Assembly (NCBI GenBank): GCA_937891045.1
Contig: CALBEV010000068.1
Span: forward strand, 1-6,615
Length of the DNA stretch: 6,615 nt
Source: an uncultured Burkholderiales bacterium
GTDB taxonomy: Bacteria; Pseudomonadota; Gammaproteobacteria; Burkholderiales; Burkholderiaceae
Direction: 5' to 3'
Position numbers and translations under genes: made by a program. The notes beneath the pieces are model-generated. The model saw only the letters and a list, made by a program, of their open reading frames with translations, was not told the origin of the DNA and made no database searches. Below are positions 1 to 6,615 of this stretch, one piece after another (the first letter of the stretch is position 1; each line of letters starts with the position of its first letter).

Positions 1-3000
1 CGGCGCTCACCACAAACGGTTTGCCATTGGCGCGAAGGAGTTTCTCCAGCTCTGAAGGGGGGGCGCCGATGGGCACGGGCAAGCCAGGCATTTGCGGAGC
101 TTGCGCAATCATGCTGACCGTGCCGTAAAGCGTGCGTGCGGTGGTGCTGGTGGCGGTGGCGTCACGAATACCGGTGATCTGGGTGTTGCCAAAATCATTG
201 GCAGTGACGGTGTCCAAAGCCATGGTGGCAGCGGTGGCAACCGCACTGTTGATGACCTTTGCACCAATCAGTTCGAAGGGCGAGCCAGCCACACTGGAGG
301 TGATGTCCAACACGCCAGCGGTGCGGGAAACACTCACATTTTTGATGGTGCCTGCCGTGATGGCAGCGTTGATAGCGGTCTGTAAAGCAGTTGCCAAATC
401 GGCTGCGGTTGTACCCCCTGAATTGGCAGAAGTGATGGTGACGCCATTGATCACGACGGATGCTGAATCGGTGACGGCCACTGTGCCTGCGATGTTGATG
501 CGTGAGACTTGATTGACCGCACCGCCTTGGTCCAAACCGAAATTGGCGGCCGACAAGTCTTTGACGTTCGAGTTGAACCACACCGACGTGTTGCGGCCGT
601 CAGAAACCAAGCTGACACCGTTGCCGTTGTCTGTGGCTGTCACGCCATGTTGCCCAGAGCGCTGATTGATGGCCTCAACCACCTTGGTGCGTCTGGCCGT
701 GCCGGTTTCGTTTTGCACGAACTCGACTTGCACCTCGACGCCATTCAAATACAAGGACTGCAGTGTGGGTGTGGCCAGCACTGGTAAGGTGGTTTGGGTG
801 ACCGAGCCTTTGATCTCTGGGCCTTTGGCCTGAGCGCGAACGGCGGTGATGGGGGTTTGGGCGTTGATGGCGTTGGCAATGGCGATGGCACTGGCACTGC
901 GGTCATTGCTGGTAGCGGGTGAATCTGAAAACTCGTCATCCGCACTGGTGGTGGGACGGATTTTCACACCGTTGATCATCAGGTCGTCTTTGCCCAAGGG
1001 TTTGAAGTTGGCGTTGGCGTTTTCAACCACATTGACCGTGGACACGGTGCTTATCGCACCGCTGCTCTTGGACACCGACAAGGTGAAGCTGGTGCCCGGG
1101 GTGTCCGACTCCAACAAAATTTCACCTATGTTGCGCCCTGCCTTGGCCGTCACGGTCAAGTCGGTGTTGGCGTTGATCTTGGTGATCAATTCATCACGCA
1201 CTTTTTGCGGGGTTAAATTGATTGCCCCTACGATTGCGGTGTATTCAAACGTGGTGCCGTTGACAGTCACGTAATAAATATCATTGGCGTTGGGGTTGGT
1301 CGTGAAAGTGACGCTGTCAACTTGCGCGACAGCTGGATTCACAATGGGACGCACCACCGTGTTGGCAACGGCTTGGTTGCGGGTGAAGTTGCCTTGCACC
1401 AAGCCGGCTCGGGTGATGTCACCGGTGCTGTCGGAGGTCAAGACCACGGGAGTTGGGATTTTCGATTGCAACGAAATCGTGCTGGACTGCACACCTTGGC
1501 GCATACCGATGCGTGCACCAAAGTCTTCGGCATTGGCCGATGTTTCAAAGCTCACCTCGATGTTGCGGCCATCGGCGGCCAACAAAGTGATGCCCTTGGT
1601 GTCTGAGCCAGTGTCAATGGCTTTGACGCCGGTCTTGTCACTGATGAGGTTGATCGCCTTGGCCACAGCCATGCGGGTTTCACGCGGGTTGTTCAAGACC
1701 GTGGTGATGTTGGCGCTGGCAAAGCCATTGACAAACACCACCCCATTGAGCACCGAGGTGCCGGACATGGCCGCACCGCTCATCATGTTTTCATTCACCT
1801 TGGCAAACACGCCTGTGCCCTCATTGGCCACAAAGTATTCACCGATGGTGTCGACCAAACCCACCAGATTGGTCGAACCCATTTGCACATTGGTGGGCGC
1901 CACATTGCCTTCGGCCGCAGCGTAAGTGATGGTGAGCGAGGAATTGCCTGGGATGTAGGTCACCATGCGTCCTGTCGGCTCGCCAAACAAAGGGCTGGCT
2001 TGCAAAGCAGCAGCAATTTTGGCTGTAGCAGAGGCTGACGTGGTGTCCATGGCATCCAGTGAGACGCTCACACCGGCGACAATCACGGTGCCGGGTGAGG
2101 GTGTGCCACTGAAGGTCAAGGACTGTGTTTCACCACGGGTCACGCCGGTGGAAACAGCTTTTCGATTGATGGCGGCAGCCTTGGCGATGGCACTGCCAGC
2201 GGCATTGTTGGCAGGCGAGACCGAATCATCGGTGGCATAAGAGGCGCCAATATCAATGCCGTTGATTTTCAAATCGCCGGCACGCAATGAAGGAATGCTG
2301 CCTGCAACATCCACATGGTATTCAAACGCGCGGACATTCAAACTCACAGCCGTGCCATCTGACTTCTTGAACTCATAGACCATGTCATCCGAGATCACTT
2401 GCGCGTTCGAGCCACTGGTTTTGATGAATGTGACGGAACTGGCTGGTGCACCATTGGTCACCACGACCGTGGGCAATGCACCTGAGCCTGTGACGGACAA
2501 ATTGGTGACGTTGGTGCCTGTGGTGGCACTTGTGAAGGTGACCGTGGTATTGGTTGACACGGCACCCGAGGCAAAGCCACTCAGGGTACCGCTGAAAGTT
2601 CCTTTGGTAGGCACCGAGCCGCCTGTGCCTGCATAGCCATTGGCACGCGAGGCAAAGTCTGTGGCCACTTCGGCGGCCGTGGCACCTGTTGAGCCAACCG
2701 TGTAGGTCAGGCCACCCAAGGTGATGGTTTGACCCGCTGTCATGGCGTTAAAGGTGACGGCGGAGGTTTCATTCGCAGCTGCGTTGTTGAACACACCGGA
2801 CATGCTGATTGTTTCGCCCTTTTCAGTCAGGAACGATGCGGTCACCGCGCCCGAGGTGTTGACGTTCATGCTCAGAGCGCCACTTTTAAGGAAAGCGCCG
2901 TTGTCTTTGAACTGTTCGACACCACTGGCCAAAGCATCTCGTGTGCTGGCCACGGCCATGGCGAGGCCAGACGCGGCCGTGATGGCGCTGAAATCGGTGG

Positions 3001-3781
3001 AAATGGCTGACACGTCGCCCTCACCGGCTGCGTAGGCCACCGTGATGACACTGCCAATCACCGAAACCGAACGGCCAGAGGAGGAATTGAAAGCGCTGTT
3101 GTTGCTGAGTGTTTGCTGAATTTTGGCGGCAATCAGATCGGTGGTGTTTTGCACTGTGGCATCAATCACCACATCGACGCCGCCGACTTTGATGGTGCCG
3201 CTGGCGAATGTGTTGTTGGTGCTGCTGAGTCTGATGGTTTGGCGTTCACCTGCATCACTTCCGCCAACCGTGCGTGAGGTGGTGGGGTCGATGAAAACCG
3301 TGCCAAATTGATTTTCCGAGGTGACTTTGAACAAAGGCATCTCGCCCACACGTTCTCCAGCAGACCCGCTGAGCACAGGAAAACCGTTCCATTCAGTCGC
3401 TTCTGCAATTTGAACAATCTGCTGCTTGAGTTGCTGGAATTCCAAATCCAAGTAACTGCGCTGAGCATTTTCATTGGTGTCGTTGACTGCCTGGATGGCC
3501 AACTCACGCATGCGTTGCATCATGTCCGTGATCTCGTTGGTCGCGCCCTCAGCGGTTTGGATCAGGGAGATGGCATCACCCGCGTTGCGCACGGCCTGAT
3601 TCAAACTGCGAATCTGGTGCGTCATGCGCGTTGAGATGGCCATGCCAGCGGCATCGTCACGGGCGGAATTGATCCGTTTACCGGTCGACAACTGTTGCAT
3701 CGCAATAGATTGACTGCGTTCAGTCGACTTGAGCGCCGCTTGCGAAAACAGTGCTTTGACGTTGGTGTTGATGACTGCCAT
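1..3781 (-). CDS. fliC: Giant flagellin, N-terminal part (3' end beyond window)
   Basis: Flagellin is the secreted subunit of the flagellar filament. The frame stays open from the ATG at 3781 to the window edge: 1260 codons, no stop, no cysteine. Residues 1-140 are a textbook D0/D1 N-terminus (MAVINTNVKAL start, LSTGKRINSARDDAAGMAI at 31-49, QRMRELAIQA at 89-98, ATEWNGFPVLSG at 128-139). Residues matching the TLR5-contact positions R90, L94 and E114 are kept. From about 160 on, the protein is a Thr/Ser/Ala/Val/Asn-rich hypervariable region with diverged repeated modules, including two flagellin hook IN-type motifs near 503 and 933 and two DGRN blocks at 737 and 1061. A proline-rich stretch lies at 1229-1242. 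The C-terminal D1/D0 is not reached, so the full protein should exceed about 1350 residues, against 270-600 for ordinary flagellins. The start is fixed by AGGAG 6 nt upstream. An own sigma-54-like promoter is likely. Flagellin identity is certain; the domain content beyond residue 160 is read by eye. Confidence 0.95.
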   Translation of the reverse strand, partial: MAVINTNVKALFSQAALKSTERSQSIAMQQLSTGKRINSARDDAAGMAISTRMTHQIRSLNQAVRNAGDAISLIQTAEGATNEITDMMQRMRELAIQAVNDTNENAQRSYLDLEFQQLKQQIVQIAEATEWNGFPVLSGSAGERVGEMPLFKVTSENQFGTVFIDPTTSRTVGGSDAGERQTIRLSSTNNTFASGTIKVGGVDVVIDATVQNTTDLIAAKIQQTLSNNSAFNSSSGRSVSVIGSVITVAYAAGEGDVSAISTDFSAITAASGLAMAVASTRDALASGVEQFKDNGAFLKSGALSMNVNTSGAVTASFLTEKGETISMSGVFNNAAANETSAVTFNAMTAGQTITLGGLTYTVGSTGATAAEVATDFASRANGYAGTGGSVPTKGTFSGTLSGFASGAVSTNTTVTFTSATTGTNVTNLSVTGSGALPTVVVTNGAPASSVTFIKTSGSNAQVISDDMVYEFKKSDGTAVSLNVRAFEYHVDVAGSIPSLRAGDLKINGIDIGASYATDDSVSPANNAAGSAIAKAAAINRKAVSTGVTRGETQSLTFSGTPSPGTVIVAGVSVSLDAMDTTSASATAKIAAALQASPLFGEPTGRMVTYIPGNSSLTITYAAAEGNVAPTNVQMGSTNLVGLVDTIGEYFVANEGTGVFAKVNENMMSGAAMSGTSVLNGVVFVNGFASANITTVLNNPRETRMAVAKAINLISDKTGVKAIDTGSDTKGITLLAADGRNIEVSFETSANAEDFGARIGMRQGVQSSTISLQSKIPTPVVLTSDSTGDITRAGLVQGNFTRNQAVANTVVRPIVNPAVAQVDSVTFTTNPNANDIYYVTVNGTTFEYTAIVGAINLTPQKVRDELITKINANTDLTVTAKAGRNIGEILLESDTPGTSFTLSVSKSSGAISTVSTVNVVENANANFKPLGKDDLMINGVKIRPTTSADDEFSDSPATSNDRSASAIAIANAINAQTPITAVRAQAKGPEIKGSVTQTTLPVLATPTLQSLYLNGVEVQVEFVQNETGTARRTKVVEAINQRSGQHGVTATDNGNGVSLVSDGRNTSVWFNSNVKDLSAANFGLDQGGAVNQVSRINIAGTVAVTDSASVVINGVTITSANSGGTTAADLATALQTAINAAITAGTIKNVSVSRTAGVLDITSSVAGSPFELIGAKVINSAVATAATMALDTVTANDFGNTQITGIRDATATSTTARTLYGTVSMIAQAPQMPGLPVPIGAPPSELEKLLRANGKPFVVSA
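536..697 (-). repeat. Flagellin module C (AIN...DGRN block), copy 2 (residues 1029-1082)
   Basis: VVEAIN, then GVTATDNGNG, VSLVSDGRNTSVWF and a closing NFG, aligned with copy 1. Both copies are preceded by an LNGV-containing strand (LNGVVFVNG near 678; YLNGVEVQVEF near 1010), so the duplicated unit is probably longer than marked. Confidence 0.7.
839..985 (-). repeat. Flagellin module B (hook IN-type motif), copy 2 (residues 933-981)
   Basis: DLMINGVKI, then a DDE-containing linker, then the helix SASAIAIANAIN and PITAV. It matches copy 1 at residues 503-547 in order and spacing, with a linker about four residues longer. Confidence 0.7.
1517..1681 (-). repeat. Flagellin module C (AIN...DGRN block), copy 1 (residues 701-755)
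   Basis: Helix ending VAKAIN, then GVKAIDTGSD, GITLLAADGRNIEVSF and a closing DFG. This AIN-GVxA-D-G...DGRN-V-F arrangement is common in central domains of betaproteobacterial flagellins. It recurs about 325 residues later. Confidence 0.7.
1901..2134 (-). repeat. Flagellin module A, copy 2 (residues 550-627)
   Basis: Second copy of the module seen at residues 178-257. It starts GETQSL, continues GTVIVAGVSVSLD and a helix (SASATAKIAAAL), and ends LTITYAAAEGNV. Segments at about residues 341-433, 820-904 and 1096-1170 have a similar V-x-GvtV...helix...I-T pattern and may be more distant copies. Confidence 0.65.
2141..2275 (-). repeat. Flagellin module B (hook IN-type motif), copy 1 (residues 503-547)
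   Basis: DLKINGIDIG, then an Asp/Ser-rich linker with DDS, then the helix SAIAKAAAIN and TGVT. This is the pattern of the flagellin hook IN motif family (L-x-ING-x-x-I...DD...AxAIAxAIN...GVxA). It is duplicated 430 residues later. Confidence 0.7.
3011..3250 (-). repeat. Flagellin module A, copy 1 (residues 178-257)
   Basis: First copy of an ~80-residue module in the variable region. It begins GERQTI, has a central GTIKVGGVDVVID strand pair followed by a helix (TTDLIAAKIQQTL), and ends ITVAYAAGEGDV. It aligns by eye with residues 550-627, 370 residues further on. The similarity is at protein level only, implying an old duplication. Confidence 0.65.
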
Positions 3782-3786
3782 TTACT

Positions 3787-3806
3787 TCTCCTGACCAGTG
3801 AGGTCA
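3787..3806 (-). promoter_or_regulatory. Flagellin ribosome binding site with adjoining hairpin
   Basis: On the minus strand AGGAG (plus 3788-3792) lies 6 nt before the flagellin ATG and decides the start. Directly 5' of it is a perfect 5-bp stem, TGACC-TCACT-GGTCA (plus 3792-3806), whose 3' arm shares its last base with the SD. The SD is certain; a regulatory role for the small hairpin is inference. Confidence 0.6.
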
Positions 3807-3827
3807 ATAATGCTATGCAACTGATTA

Positions 3828-3843
3828 GGAAATCCTTGTGCCA
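3828..3843 (-). promoter_or_regulatory. Candidate sigma-54 promoter of the flagellin gene
   Basis: Minus strand TGGCAC-AAGGA-TTTCC. The -24 box is perfect and the spacing to the -12 box is correct, but TTTCC replaces the consensus TTGCW. It lines up with the much better element upstream of the neighbouring TPR gene (TGGCAC-N5-TTnCnTAATC in both). The expected transcript start is about 35 nt before the ATG. No sigma-28-like promoter (TAAA...GCCGATAA) was seen in the gap. Confidence 0.5.
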
Positions 3844-3844
3844 A

Positions 3845-3871
3845 TTTCAATTTCATTCTTTGAATTTGAAA
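3845..3871. repeat. AT-rich inverted repeat upstream of the flagellin -24 box
   Basis: Plus strand TTTCAATTTCA-TTCTT-TGAATTTGAAA: 11-bp arms with one mismatch around a 5-bp centre. It ends 1 bp from the candidate flagellin -24 element. It could be a binding site for a transcription factor or enhancer-binding protein; no T-tract follows it, so a terminator is unlikely. Confidence 0.55.
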
Positions 3872-3893
3872 AAATCCTGTGTTTTCAACTGTT

Positions 3894-3961
3894 TTGCCGC
3901 TGTTTGTTGCCGCAGTGGCAACATTTGTTGCATCAGAGGAAAGGAATTGCCGCATTGCCGC
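3894..3961. repeat. Four GCGGCAA repeats with an internal palindrome
   Basis: TTGCCGC (GCGGCAA on minus) occurs at 3894-3900, 3907-3913, 3947-3953 and 3955-3961. One copy overlaps a perfect inverted repeat, TGTTGCC-GCAGT-GGCAACA, at 3905-3923. The cluster lies between the TPR stop and the flagellin promoter. It may be a regulator-binding array or part of a TPR-transcript terminator, although no U-tract is adjacent. Confidence 0.5.
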
Positions 3962-3971
3962 AGGTACTTTT

Positions 3972-4436
3972 TTATTGGATTTGCGAGCTTTCGCCCACCA
4001 GGTCGGCGTAGTCTTCCAGAGAAAGACTTTCAGCCACGAGTTCAAGCTGCTCGGGGTAGGCCTTGAGGCCTTTGCGGGCGACTTGCAATGCTTTTGCAGG
4101 GTCCAGGTTGCAGCGCAGTGCGCGCACCAACATCACATAAGTGAAGGGCTGGGTGTTGTCCCCTTGGATGTCCATGAGTTCTTGCAGCATTTCCACGGCC
4201 ATGTCCCAGTCTTGCTGAATCAGGGCCAGCAAGCCGTTGATGGCCAGCATGTCTTCGCTGTGGGGGTGGATGCTCATGCCGGCGGCGCCCAAGGCGTAGG
4301 CCAAGTCCAATTGCTCGGTGGCCACCAACGATTGGATGGCTTCGCGGATCTCACCGGGGGTGAAACGCTTGATGTGTTCGGTTTGCAAAAAGCCGCCCAC
4401 TTGGGCTTGGTTCAACAATTCTTGGATGAGAGACAT
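3972..4436 (-). CDS. TPR-like cytoplasmic protein, likely flagellum-associated
   Basis: A 154-residue protein with no signal peptide or membrane segment, predicted cytoplasmic. From about residue 36 to 127 it consists of paired amphipathic helices typical of about three tetratricopeptide repeats (LDLAYALGAAGMSIHPHSED; LALIQQDWDMAVEMLQELM; VRALRCNLDPAKALQVARKG), the last ending KAYPEQ. The N-terminal 30 residues (MSLIQELLNQAQ...) and the acidic C-terminal tail fall outside the repeats. The start is supported by AGGAG 6 nt upstream. It lies 190 bp upstream of the flagellin gene on the same strand and has its own near-consensus sigma-54 promoter. TPR proteins act as protein-protein adaptors. Neighbourhood and promoter suggest a role in flagellin handling, secretion or regulation, but I do not recognise a named family and this role is inference. 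Confidence 0.85.
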   Translation of the reverse strand: MSLIQELLNQAQVGGFLQTEHIKRFTPGEIREAIQSLVATEQLDLAYALGAAGMSIHPHSEDMLAINGLLALIQQDWDMAVEMLQELMDIQGDNTQPFTYVMLVRALRCNLDPAKALQVARKGLKAYPEQLELVAESLSLEDYADLVGESSQIQ

Positions 4437-4442
4437 GAAAAA

Positions 4443-4447
4443 CTCCT
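4443..4447 (-). promoter_or_regulatory. Ribosome binding site of the TPR gene
   Basis: AGGAG on the minus strand, 6 nt before the ATG at 4436. It fixes the start, and the spacing matches that of the flagellin SD. Confidence 0.8.
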
Positions 4448-4502
4448 GTTGGTGTCGGAAAAATGGCCACAGCGGTCAAGATGTGGCAGATGCATCCGAT
4501 TA

Positions 4503-4519
4503 AGCAAGAGTAGTGCCAG
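4503..4519 (-). promoter_or_regulatory. Sigma-54 promoter of the TPR gene
   Basis: Minus strand CTGGCAC-TACTC-TTGCT matches the sigma-54 consensus YTGGCACG-N4-TTGCW at every strongly conserved position except the last G of the -24 box. The GG and GC dinucleotides are spaced as required. Transcription is expected to start near 4492, giving a leader of about 55 nt. Such a promoter needs an AAA+ enhancer-binding protein (for example a FleQ/FlrC-type activator), which is not encoded here. Confidence 0.8.
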
Positions 4520-4520
4520 T

Positions 4521-4537
4521 ATTTACTTTATGTAAAT
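4521..4537. repeat. Inverted repeat adjacent to the TPR-gene -24 box
   Basis: Perfect palindrome ATTTAC-TTTAT-GTAAAT with 6-bp arms, starting 1 bp upstream of the sigma-54 element. It may be an activator or repressor site. Confidence 0.5.
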
Positions 4538-4568
4538 CAAGGACTTAGGGTGGTTTTACAGTGGTGCA

Positions 4569-4592
4569 GGGGTTTGCCGGTGGGGTTTGGGG
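4569..4592 (+). other. G-rich tract with an 8-bp direct repeat
   Basis: GGGGTTTG occurs twice (4569-4576 and 4582-4589), and the second copy runs into another GGGG. This gives three G4 runs within 24 nt, with a further GGG at 4548-4550. It lies between the two divergent promoters. A G-quadruplex is possible but the fourth run is distant. Confidence 0.4.
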
Positions 4593-4639
4593 ACTCAAAA
4601 TTATCATCTCACACCACGAGTTGGATTCTATTTTTATCT

Positions 4640-4677
4640 CTATTATGGACATTTATCCAATTTATTGTCCATAATAG
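4640..4677. promoter_or_regulatory. Palindromic operator in front of hipBA
   Basis: Perfect 11-bp inverted repeat CTATTATGGAC / GTCCATAATAG separated by 16 bp, ending 4 bp before the hipB ATG. The left arm contains TATTAT, which could act as a -10 box. A smaller TGGA-N6-TCCA palindrome sits at 4646-4659. HipB-family antitoxins repress their own operon through palindromes in this position, so this is the probable autoregulatory site. It does not match the E. coli TATCC-N8-GGATA operator literally. Confidence 0.75.
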
Positions 4678-4681
4678 CTTT

Positions 4682-4972
4682 ATGCCAAAGAAGCCGCCCG
4701 TGGTCTACCCACAAGAACAACAAAATCTCTCCGAACTGGGTGAGCGTCTCAAGCTTGCCCGATTGCGCCGCAAACTGAGCAGTATGGTGGTGGCCCAGCG
4801 TGCAGGGATTTCCAGAACATCGCTTTACAAGGTTGAGAAAGGTGATGCGGGGGCCACGCTTGGCACCTATGTGCGCGTTTTGGCTGTACTGGGATTGGAT
4901 GGTGATATTCGGCATTTGGCTGCAGACGATAGGTTGGGCCGAAAACTGCAAGATTTGGATTTGCGACGATGA
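4682..4972 (+). CDS. hipB: HipB-like antitoxin, XRE-family DNA-binding protein
   Basis: A 96-residue antitoxin and transcriptional repressor. Residues 18-75 form an HTH_3/Cro-CI domain: LGERLKLARLRRKLS (helix 1), MVVAQRAGIS (helix 2), SRTSLYKVEKG at 44-54 (recognition helix and turn), then TLGTYVRVLAVLGL. The C-terminus (RHLAADDRLGRKLQDLDLRR) resembles HipB tails of this subgroup. The start chosen is the ATG at 4682, just after the palindromic operator. There is no good Shine-Dalgarno sequence, so translation may depend on a short leader. A longer in-frame reading from 4550 would translate through the operator and adds a non-homologous hydrophobic stretch, so I reject it. The stop overlaps the hipA start (ATGA), indicating translational coupling. 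In this family HipB binds and neutralises HipA and represses the operon. Confidence 0.92.
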   Translation: MPKKPPVVYPQEQQNLSELGERLKLARLRRKLSSMVVAQRAGISRTSLYKVEKGDAGATLGTYVRVLAVLGLDGDIRHLAADDRLGRKLQDLDLRR

Positions 4973-6207
4973 GCCTGCACACAAACTTGCTTGAAGTCTG
5001 GCTGGATTGCGACTTGGCCGAACCATGCCTTGTTGGCACACTGGGCCACGACAGAGGGCAAATTCGTTTTCATTACAACCGCGATTGGCTAGATCAACCC
5101 AGCGCCTTTGCTTTAGATCCAGATTTATCACTGGATGATGCACCCTTTTTCCCAAAGCCTGAACTTGGCAACTTCGGCATTTTTTTAGATTCATCGCCTG
5201 ACCGCTGGGGCCAAACCTTGATGAAGCGTCGTGAGGCGCTTCAAGCGAAAGATGAACAAAGAAATGCACGCACGCTTTATGGTTGGGACTACTTTTTAGG
5301 CGTTCAAGACCTGACACGCCAAGGTGGCTTGCGTATCCGAATTCCTGGAACGCCAGAATTTTTGAGCAATGACGTCTTGGCTGCACCACCAATGTCTACT
5401 CTGAGAGATCTGGAAGCAGTCGCTTATCAACTCAGTCATCGCCAGATTGATGATTTGGATGCCCTGCGTAAATGGTTGTCGGTGTTGGTTGCACCAGGCG
5501 CATCCCTTGGCGGGGCCAGGCCAAAAGCCAACTTCACAGAAAAAGATGGCTCTTTATGGATCGCCAAATTTCCAGCGCGTGACGATGACCGGGATGTGGG
5601 CGCGTGGGAGTTCGTCACGCATCAAATGGCGACAAAAGCGGGTATTGATGTGCCTGAGGCCCGACTACTGCGCTTGAATAACGACTTTCACACTTTCTGC
5701 ACGAAGCGCTTTGACCGAGCAGGCGGCAAGAGACGGTTTTATGCCTCGGCCATGACACTGCTGAAAAAAGACCAAAGTGAAGGCAGCAGTTACTTGGAAA
5801 TGGCCCAATTTCTTCGAACGCAAAGTGATGGCGCTCATTCAGCCAAAGACTTGGCCCAGCTATTCCGACGTGTTGTATTCAATGTGGCGGTTGGCAATAG
5901 AGATGACCATCTGCGCAACCATGGCTTTGTATTGACGGCCACAGGCTTGCGTTTGGCACCGGCCTTTGATGTCAATCCAAGTCCGGACAAGGCTGACCAT
6001 GTTTTGAATATTGATGCGACGGATCACTTGCCCCAAATTGAAACAGTCTTGGCGACAGCAGGTTTTTATGGGCTGACTGCCTCTCTTGCTCAACAAGTGG
6101 TGGATGAGGTGATAGAAGTCACCAGTCGTTGGCGAGAATTAGCAAGCGACACTGGGATTGCAAAGGCTGATATTGAATTAACGGCTCGAGCCTTCATCAG
6201 GCGGTGA
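4969..6207 (+). CDS. hipA: HipA-like serine/threonine kinase toxin
   Basis: A 412-residue type II toxin of the HipA kinase family, close to the family's usual ~400-440. The N-terminal subdomain covers about 5-125, with GNFGIFLDSSPDRWGQ at 68-82 as the typical HipA_N/couple region. The kinase core follows: S179-LGGARPK aligns with the E. coli HipA serine autophosphorylation and phosphate-binding loop (SVAGAQEK), WIAKFP gives the candidate ATP lysine K200, GNRDDHLRN at 309-317 is the catalytic loop with D312, and APAFDVNPSP at 330-339 supplies the metal-binding D334. All key residues look intact, so activity is expected. E. coli HipA phosphorylates glutamyl-tRNA synthetase and causes growth arrest and persistence; the target here is unknown. 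It starts at the ATGA overlap with hipB, has no own promoter, and converges on the next gene with a 15-bp gap. Confidence 0.95.
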   Translation: MSLHTNLLEVWLDCDLAEPCLVGTLGHDRGQIRFHYNRDWLDQPSAFALDPDLSLDDAPFFPKPELGNFGIFLDSSPDRWGQTLMKRREALQAKDEQRNARTLYGWDYFLGVQDLTRQGGLRIRIPGTPEFLSNDVLAAPPMSTLRDLEAVAYQLSHRQIDDLDALRKWLSVLVAPGASLGGARPKANFTEKDGSLWIAKFPARDDDRDVGAWEFVTHQMATKAGIDVPEARLLRLNNDFHTFCTKRFDRAGGKRRFYASAMTLLKKDQSEGSSYLEMAQFLRTQSDGAHSAKDLAQLFRRVVFNVAVGNRDDHLRNHGFVLTATGLRLAPAFDVNPSPDKADHVLNIDATDHLPQIETVLATAGFYGLTASLAQQVVDEVIEVTSRWRELASDTGIAKADIELTARAFIRR

Positions 6208-6210
6208 ATG

Positions 6211-6229
6211 GGCACCTGAAACTCAGGCC
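6211..6229. terminator. Weak hairpin between convergent genes
   Basis: CCTGA-AAC-TCAGG (6215-6227), extendable by GG/CC with a two-base bulge. It lies between the hipA stop and the end of the converging gene and overlaps that gene's stop codon. There is no T-tract on either strand, so it is only a possible bidirectional terminator. Confidence 0.25.
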
Positions 6230-6615
6230 AAATCTTGCATATGAACCAAGCCCTGAATGGGCAGGCGGCAGCGGTGCGCCCACGGCGGCAAAGCGCTGAA
6301 GGTTTCCCGCCCAGCGGCAGCGGCCACCACCAAAGCGAAGGACTCCACGCCCACCACCCAGCGGGATTGAGAAATGGCTTGGTTCAAATCCATCTGCTGG
6401 TCTAACTGGATAGTCAAAGACCCCTGCGCTTGTATCCAGGCGGTGTATTTCTCAGGCGGGTCTGAAGGATGAGGCCGCAGTGTGATCTGCACGGGCCCAT
6501 GGCCCACCACCTGCGCCAAATGCTGCACCAAAAAATCCAAGGCTTGAAACTCGCCCTGCACGCCCCTGCCCCAGTCGTTGCGCACCGGCTCCAACACGAA
6601 CAGCAGGTTGCGGCA
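6223..6615 (-). CDS. Putative glycosyltransferase-like protein, C-terminal part (5' end beyond window)
   Basis: An open frame of 130 codons ending in TGA at 6223-6225; the start lies beyond the right edge, since the frame continues upstream of the GTG at 6597 as CRNLLF. Visible features are a strand LLFVLEPV, an ITLRPHPSDPPEKY segment, and SRWVVGVESFALVVAAAAG near the C-terminus, followed by LPPWAHRCRLP. An RPHP segment followed about 45 residues later by a V-G-x-E-S-F-A segment resembles the nucleotide-sugar-binding half of GT-B-fold enzymes of the polysialyltransferase and capsule type. This is pattern resemblance, not a firm assignment. If correct it would act in surface-glycan or flagellin glycosylation, in keeping with the flagellin nearby. 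It is convergent with hipA. It could also be an uncharacterised family with no transferase activity. Confidence 0.6.
   Translation of the reverse strand, partial: CRNLLFVLEPVRNDWGRGVQGEFQALDFLVQHLAQVVGHGPVQITLRPHPSDPPEKYTAWIQAQGSLTIQLDQQMDLNQAISQSRWVVGVESFALVVAAAAGRETFSALPPWAHRCRLPIQGLVHMQDLA

Follow-up and report, generated by a model that had tools for sequence, protein, structure and literature searches.

A giant flagellin with a linked TPR gene, and enlarged hook and junction proteins, in a freshwater Burkholderiales lineage

The window analysed here is a stretch of 6,615 nucleotides from an uncultured Burkholderiales bacterium (GenBank assembly GCA_937891045.1, contig CALBEV010000068.1, positions 1 to 6,615), and it carries a gene for a giant flagellin on its minus strand. 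A single frame runs from an ATG at position 3781 to base 2, which gives 1260 codons without a stop, and is open at the left edge (2..3781; residues 1-1260 of about 1438). The D0/D1 N-terminal part was assigned to residues 1-140 (3362..3781, minus strand), with a Flagellin_N (PF00669) match at residues 4-140 (E=8.4e-38). A protein search scored 7991 candidates, of which 2842 were homologues at E<=0.001, and every one of the best 120 listed was 1406-1889 amino acids (aa) long and had both Flagellin_N and Flagellin_C (PF00700). Five homologues of 1438 aa were 97-98% identical across all 1260 residues of the window, so the left edge truncates the window gene. In these five, both flagellin ends were present in the precomputed domains, and a scan of one of them (P0001) placed Flagellin_C at residues 1352-1436; the C-terminal domain that had been expected to the left thus lies beyond the window. 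The protein is roughly three times as large as a usual flagellin and exceeds the 1000 aa that define a giant flagellin, both in its 1260 stop-free residues and in its 1438 aa homologues, and the original prediction of a giant flagellin with a canonical D0/D1 N-terminus in a betaproteobacterium was confirmed.

A truncated or broken gene, or a misassembly, had been named as the outcome that would undo this prediction. The frame does leave the contig edge, as a broken gene might. Against this stand the complete homologues at 97-98% identity and 19 giants with complete genes (1133-1487 aa), each on a genome contig of its own; three of these come from named Limnohabitans strains. A broken or chimeric origin was rejected for the family and is highly improbable for the window copy; judged by its homologues, the gene is cut but genuine. 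The composition of the protein had also been singled out, and this did not hold up. The window flagellin has no cysteine and 22% serine plus threonine, and the giants average 21.5% with no cysteine (21 rows, including one duplicate and one without a start), but ordinary paralogues of 640-740 aa gave 21.4% and no cysteine (14 rows, one duplicate). Cysteine was present in 10 of the 120 listed giant homologues. Neither trait was retained as a distinguishing one. No Flagellinolysin metallopeptidase domain was found, as Pfam reported flagellin ends only (P0001 at E 0.01, the window protein at 0.001). Internal repeats were not found in P0001, P0092 or P0097, and P0001 had no self-similar stretch at E 1e-3; growth of the window's own protein by tandem repeats was rejected as no repeats were seen. 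A plasmid origin was likewise rejected, since none of the 185 matching plasmid records covered more than 80% of the query and the best 20 covered 11-17%.

Upstream of the flagellin lies a gene for a 154 aa tetratricopeptide repeat (TPR) protein (3972..4436, minus strand), recognised by Pfam, locus comparison and a structure model. Among 27 loci of relatives, two (L003 and L010) did not contain enough DNA to be counted, and in 24 of the remaining 25 the TPR gene was the flagellin's upstream neighbour. The exception was L012 (Limnohabitans Jir61), where a gene with ALTTAQ repeats stands between and the TPR gene is about 11 kb away. On the 3' side of the flagellin follow a small cysteine-containing protein, a sigma-54 activator, fliE and fliF; the small protein (L004:12296-12580) was found in most loci and matched no family. 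The TPR protein was modelled as a plain TPR solenoid with a predicted local distance difference test score (pLDDT) of 90.5. Its matches among the rows listed were to general TPR proteins only, with HrpB1_HrpK below the cut-off in 8 of 21 members, and nothing specific among them favoured a SycD-like identity (the type III secretion class II chaperone SycD/LcrH). A chaperone special to giants was rejected, as the TPR gene also adjoins flagellins of 270-395 aa.

The flagellin gene is preceded by a sigma-54-like promoter (3828..3843, minus strand). In all 26 relatives compared, the site TGGCA[CT]-N5-TTGC[AT] was found 59-91 bases ahead of the flagellin and with no more than one mismatch, and 74 of 5000 random 100-base stretches from the same loci contained such a site by chance. 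The window copy has two mismatches, with TC in place of GC in the GG-N10-GC core (TTTCC at -12). The TPR gene has a perfect match to the sigma-54 pattern of its own (4503..4518, minus strand); such a site was present in 17 of the 18 relatives checked and absent from L004. Just before the Shine-Dalgarno sequence of the flagellin, covariation pointed to a small leader hairpin (3793..3805, minus strand). In 20 loci, with seven Oxalobacteraceae-type loci excluded, its 4 bp were paired in 98.8% of cells and three of the four pairs had changes on both sides, while one of five hairpin measures was no better than shuffles. The hairpin may possibly control translation of the flagellin.

The giant flagellin marks a freshwater Comamonadaceae/Oxalobacteraceae lineage. 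All 27 loci from the species-genome scan carried the names of Limnohabitans strains or of metagenome-assembled genomes of Comamonadaceae, Oxalobacteraceae, Betaproteobacteria or Burkholderiales, and the named carriers were Limnohabitans JirII-31, Jir61 and B9-3. When 399 genomes drawn from the family of JirII-31 were searched at 1e-10, the outer region matched in 11; in two of these (G234 and G303) the match was weak and confined to one domain of flagellins of 705-706 aa, and in a third (G337) it lay in one domain of a flagellin of 720 aa. The TPR gene was found in 15 of the 399 genomes, and in 14 of the 15 a flagellin adjoined it. The TPR-linked flagellins that were fetched measured 270, 283, 288, 378, 393, 395, 720, 945, 1331, 1370 and 1594 aa, where the 945 aa frame (G228) ends without a flagellin-like end and was kept as found. 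The order of sigma-54 activator, fliE and fliF was seen in four of seven non-giant loci (L123, L125, L126 and L128).

A D0/D1 tree of 50 proteins with a midpoint root placed nine of ten fetched TPR-linked flagellins in one group (support 94/91), together with 18 giants and a 736 aa flagellin from L025. Within this group the short flagellins branched first and the giants were nested. The giant of L004 had both ends in common with the ~700 aa paralogues, and with several of them also two core outer domains, and the remainder consisted of insertions at several places. In P0092 (1889 aa), about 460 extra residues lay near residue 190. These comparisons of sequence showed that the giant is related to the TPR-linked flagellins of 270-395 aa and differs from them by inserted surface domains.

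Further flagellin copies, which the original prediction had proposed to look for, were found in genomes that carry a giant. Thirteen genomes, selected for having a giant, contained 2-4 Flagellin_N genes each, with the giant itself cut in G012. A flagellin frame of 643-753 aa accompanied the giant in 12 of the 13 (G001 showed just a fragment, located where a contig ends), and most had an FlgL-like Flagellin_N gene near 310 aa. A single FliF scored over the cut-off in 12 of the 13; G005 and G009 had a second match below it, and G012 gave only a partial match. FliS was over the cut-off in 12 of the 13 genomes. Only one of 13 distinct paralogues of about 640-740 aa had a sigma-54 site before it, namely that of L025, and a loose sigma-28 pattern (at most three mismatches) preceded six of the other 12 paralogues and two of 27 giants. 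In L025, the 736 aa flagellin with the sigma-54 site is divergent to the giant and comes with a second TPR copy, a possible duplication of the pair. A divergent class of 692-706 aa flagellins was also noted (L026:5041-7119, L060 and L015:14214), in L026 directly upstream of the TPR gene.

Axial-protein genes were then compared in 18 genomes. In the 14 genomes with flagellins of 945-1594 aa, FlgE was 1056-1572 aa and FlgK 927-1500 aa. In the four genomes with flagellins of 283-720 aa, FlgE was 784-798 aa and FlgK 830-923 aa. The controls were 16 relatives, hand-picked and not random, of which 12 had no TPR match and four (G034, G036, G057 and G084) had no TPR status listed; their lengths are those of open frames with unchecked starts. 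Control FlgE frames were 398-649 aa in 14 of the 16, with G025 cut by a contig end and G026 having a frame of 823 in which the match spans 418 residues. Control FlgK frames were 634-846 in 15 of the 16, with G022 split by contig ends and G036 having also a second frame of 468. FlgF and FlgG frames were of ordinary length in the large-flagellin genomes (248-270 aa), as was FlgL at 307-309 aa. By Pfam, the assignment was confirmed for two FlgE proteins, two FlgK proteins and one FliD. Flagellin length correlated with FlgE length (rho 0.65, n 18) and with FlgK length (rho 0.49, n 17), but these values are uncorrected for kinship and stand for few independent cases.

Several genomes were left out of the size comparison. 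Three giant genomes (G008, G012 and G137) had an incomplete FlgE or FlgK, and three short-flagellin genomes were excluded because G050 had no FlgE or FlgK match and G174 and G379 had more than one flagellar gene set. In G174, a TPR-linked flagellin of 288 aa occurs with an FlgE frame of 958, and in G379 one of 393 aa occurs with an FlgK frame of 1023. The hook and the junction probably grew before the filament, since short-flagellin relatives already have an FlgE of about 790 aa and an FlgK of about 830 aa, and the two excluded genomes point in the same direction. From these lengths, the exposed flagellum seems enlarged as a whole.

Structure prediction, which had been suggested as a check on the original prediction, modelled the ~1100 outer residues (141-1260; 2..3361, minus strand) as a string of beta-rich domains. 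About 8-9 beta-alpha-beta modules were counted from the secondary structure of the model, which had a mean pLDDT of 83 and a predicted template modelling score (pTM) of 0.45. How the domains of this string are placed relative to one another is uncertain in the model. In structure matches, single domains resembled the outer domains of flagellin and FliD and also surface domains of phage tail sheaths. Since so long a chain is predicted to fold as beta-rich domains, a filament that is thick and decorated can reasonably be expected.

One of these domains appears to be mobile. The domain at residues 330-455 (2417..2794, minus strand) matched 10 of 16 genomes searched and was found in the flagellin frame of seven (G001, G002, G003, G004, G012, G013 and G137). 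It occurred elsewhere in FlgE and FliD of G007, in FlgK of G010 and G137, and in FliD of G093. A profile built from flagellins only recovered the FlgE, FliD and FlgK of G007, G010 and G093 at 8e-24 to 5e-29 and the FliD of G337 at 5e-12, and it matched no further frame in 19 stretches. The domain is also borne by a 13,554-residue frame of G001 (L151-L153), with 12 copies in the part that was fetched, and we read this protein as RTX-like because of the GGxGxD-type repeats there. Inner regions of different axial proteins matched one another within a single genome in 7 of the 18 genomes, the best match being that between flagellin and FlgE of G297 (43% over 267 residues, 1e-28). Flagellin took part in such matches in only two genomes, G297 and G228. 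Between genomes, 86 cross-protein pairs were found at 1e-6, of which 24 involve flagellin. One identical coat on every part of one flagellum was not borne out; G137 alone showed the 330-455 domain in both flagellin and FlgK of one genome, and weakly.

We consider it likely that the window encodes part of a genuine giant flagellin, of about 1438 aa and 147 kDa, that serves as a sigma-54-controlled filament subunit in the single flagellar system of a Limnohabitans-like bacterium. We put it no higher because the downstream gene order was not seen in three of the seven non-giant loci. The giant would pass in unfolded form through the normal flagellar export machinery, its D0/D1 parts would polymerise as in other flagellins, and a thick coat would be formed by the outer domains. 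It is probably made early, together with hook and junction, and may form either the section of the filament close to the hook or its backbone, since it appears to be sigma-54-controlled and the ~700 aa paralogues do not, half of these having a sigma-28-like site. The TPR protein would most likely bind flagellin in the cytoplasm, as a chaperone or as a modification adaptor. The precedent is Caulobacter FlmG, in which a TPR part is reported to bind flagellins for the transfer of pseudaminic acid (PMC7591256). As in that system, a TPR unit is tied to flagellin and pseudaminic acid genes lie near the giant: PseI, PseG and PseC genes were found upstream in L004, and frames suggested the same gene order in L001. 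In contrast to FlmG, the TPR protein here has 154 aa and no glycosyltransferase part, and its partner role is a prediction.

A coat along the whole length of the exposed flagellum is probable, given that FlgE and FlgK are enlarged in relatives too. The benefit that we find likeliest, at odds somewhat short of even, is surface interaction, which may mean attachment or else a defence against phages and grazers; Limnohabitans is described as a prominent and heavily grazed genus of lakes (PMC3591437). We tentatively propose, with less assurance again, that one freshwater Burkholderiales lineage underwent gigantism of the whole flagellum. Hook, junction and filament, and in some genomes the cap, may have acquired new outer coverings from a common stock of surface domains, which is shuffled and also used in RTX-like giants, giving an adhesive or protective organelle in which the hook and FlgK grew before the filament. 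Several observations weigh against the main explanation, that of a sigma-54-controlled giant filament subunit, or against parts of it. FliD length does not track flagellin length (rho -0.28, n 15), and in G174 and G379 a short TPR-linked flagellin occurs beside an FlgE or FlgK of large size. On the tree, the G100 flagellin of 283 aa was placed outside the group (81/65), and the activator-fliE-fliF order was not found in L122, L124 and L127, for which 2-3 kb were fetched downstream. The window copy of the promoter alone is without the -12 GC kept by relatives. Finally, four Limnohabitans type strains are described as non-motile (PMC3031073).

The enlargement could instead be purely mechanical, as proposed for the giants of Oceanospirillales, with a thicker and stiffer propeller, a matching hook, and adhesin-like domains that are a reused beta-rich module without any adhesive role. 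This differs from the explanation given above only in the benefit, and we regard it as possible though not favoured. It would fit the filaments of at least 30 nm reported for giants of 1020 and 1190 aa (PMC6248924) and the reported influence of sheath-like outer domains on waveform and tumbling in E. coli (PMC8931119), and a joint enlargement of hook and junction is what a mechanical match would look like. However, in G001 one domain is common to the flagellin and to a giant RTX-like protein encoded in that genome, and the carriers are planktonic in water and not in viscous media. It is somewhat more doubtful that the giant is a minor subunit, limited to a small stretch of the filament beside the hook, with the ~700 aa flagellins of sigma-28 type making up the bulk of the filament. 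On the question of a subunit near the hook or along the whole filament, V. cholerae, C. jejuni and Shewanella are reported to differ (PMC3120886, PMC11839096). The sigma-28-independent flagellin of Shewanella adjoins the junction (PMC11839096, PMC3120886) and the sigma-54 flagellin of C. jejuni is described as minor, which together with the enlarged neighbours here being the hook and FlgK would suit a minor subunit, whereas in V. cholerae the sigma-54 flagellin is reported to be the essential one.

Thomson et al. (2018) described giant flagellins of 1020 aa in Bermanella marisrubri and 1190 aa in Oleibacter marinus, both Oceanospirillales (PMC6248924). Like these, as far as that account goes, the flagellins here exceed 1000 aa and have ordinary D0/D1 ends and insertions in the outer region in a lineage with shorter members. 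In the Oceanospirillales, the giant is described as the sole flagellin with tandem DE regions, whereas here there are coexisting paralogues of about 640-750 aa, no internal repeat in the three proteins searched, and an enlarged FlgE and FlgK; the DE model was not compared. The text of that paper names alpha-, gamma- and delta/epsilon-proteobacteria and several other phyla, and not betaproteobacteria, its supplementary list of 92 sequences apart (PMC6248924). No description of this lineage was found in the accessible parts of the open-licence literature on giant flagellins, on Limnohabitans flagella or on outer domains with FlgE and FlgK. Thomson et al. closed by asking whether other flagellar parts are correspondingly large in giant-flagellin bacteria (PMC6248924). 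Our comparison bears on this question, as FlgE and FlgK are about twice the control length (FlgE up to three times) but the rod proteins and FlgL are not. With relatives whose TPR-linked flagellins range from 270 to 1594 aa, the enlargement of a flagellum can also be put to the test. With V. cholerae FlaA and Campylobacter FlaB, both of polar flagella, the system has in common that one flagellin has a sigma-54 site and the others do not, according to the account of those systems (PMC3120886); it differs in the larger size and the linked TPR gene. Compared with P. aeruginosa FliC, the cell-surface flagellin of Sphingomonas and H. pylori FlaA/FlaB, which have outer D2/D3 domains, there are far more such domains per chain here.

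The rest of the window holds other genes. Beside the flagellin locus, a helix-turn-helix (HTH) gene and a HipA-like gene form a toxin-antitoxin-like pair (4550-6207, plus strand), and related pairs were seen in L006, L019 and L026 among the loci searched. A cut gene at the right edge (6223-6615, minus strand) had no Pfam family, with a best match at 0.01, below the cut-off, and alpha-2,8-polysialyltransferase at 0.25; its relative in L026 adjoins a DegT-family (sugar-modifying) aminotransferase. Large proteins with ALTTAQ repeats lie beside the giant in L012 (1570-7755, 2061 aa) and in L002 (279-4430, 1383 aa).
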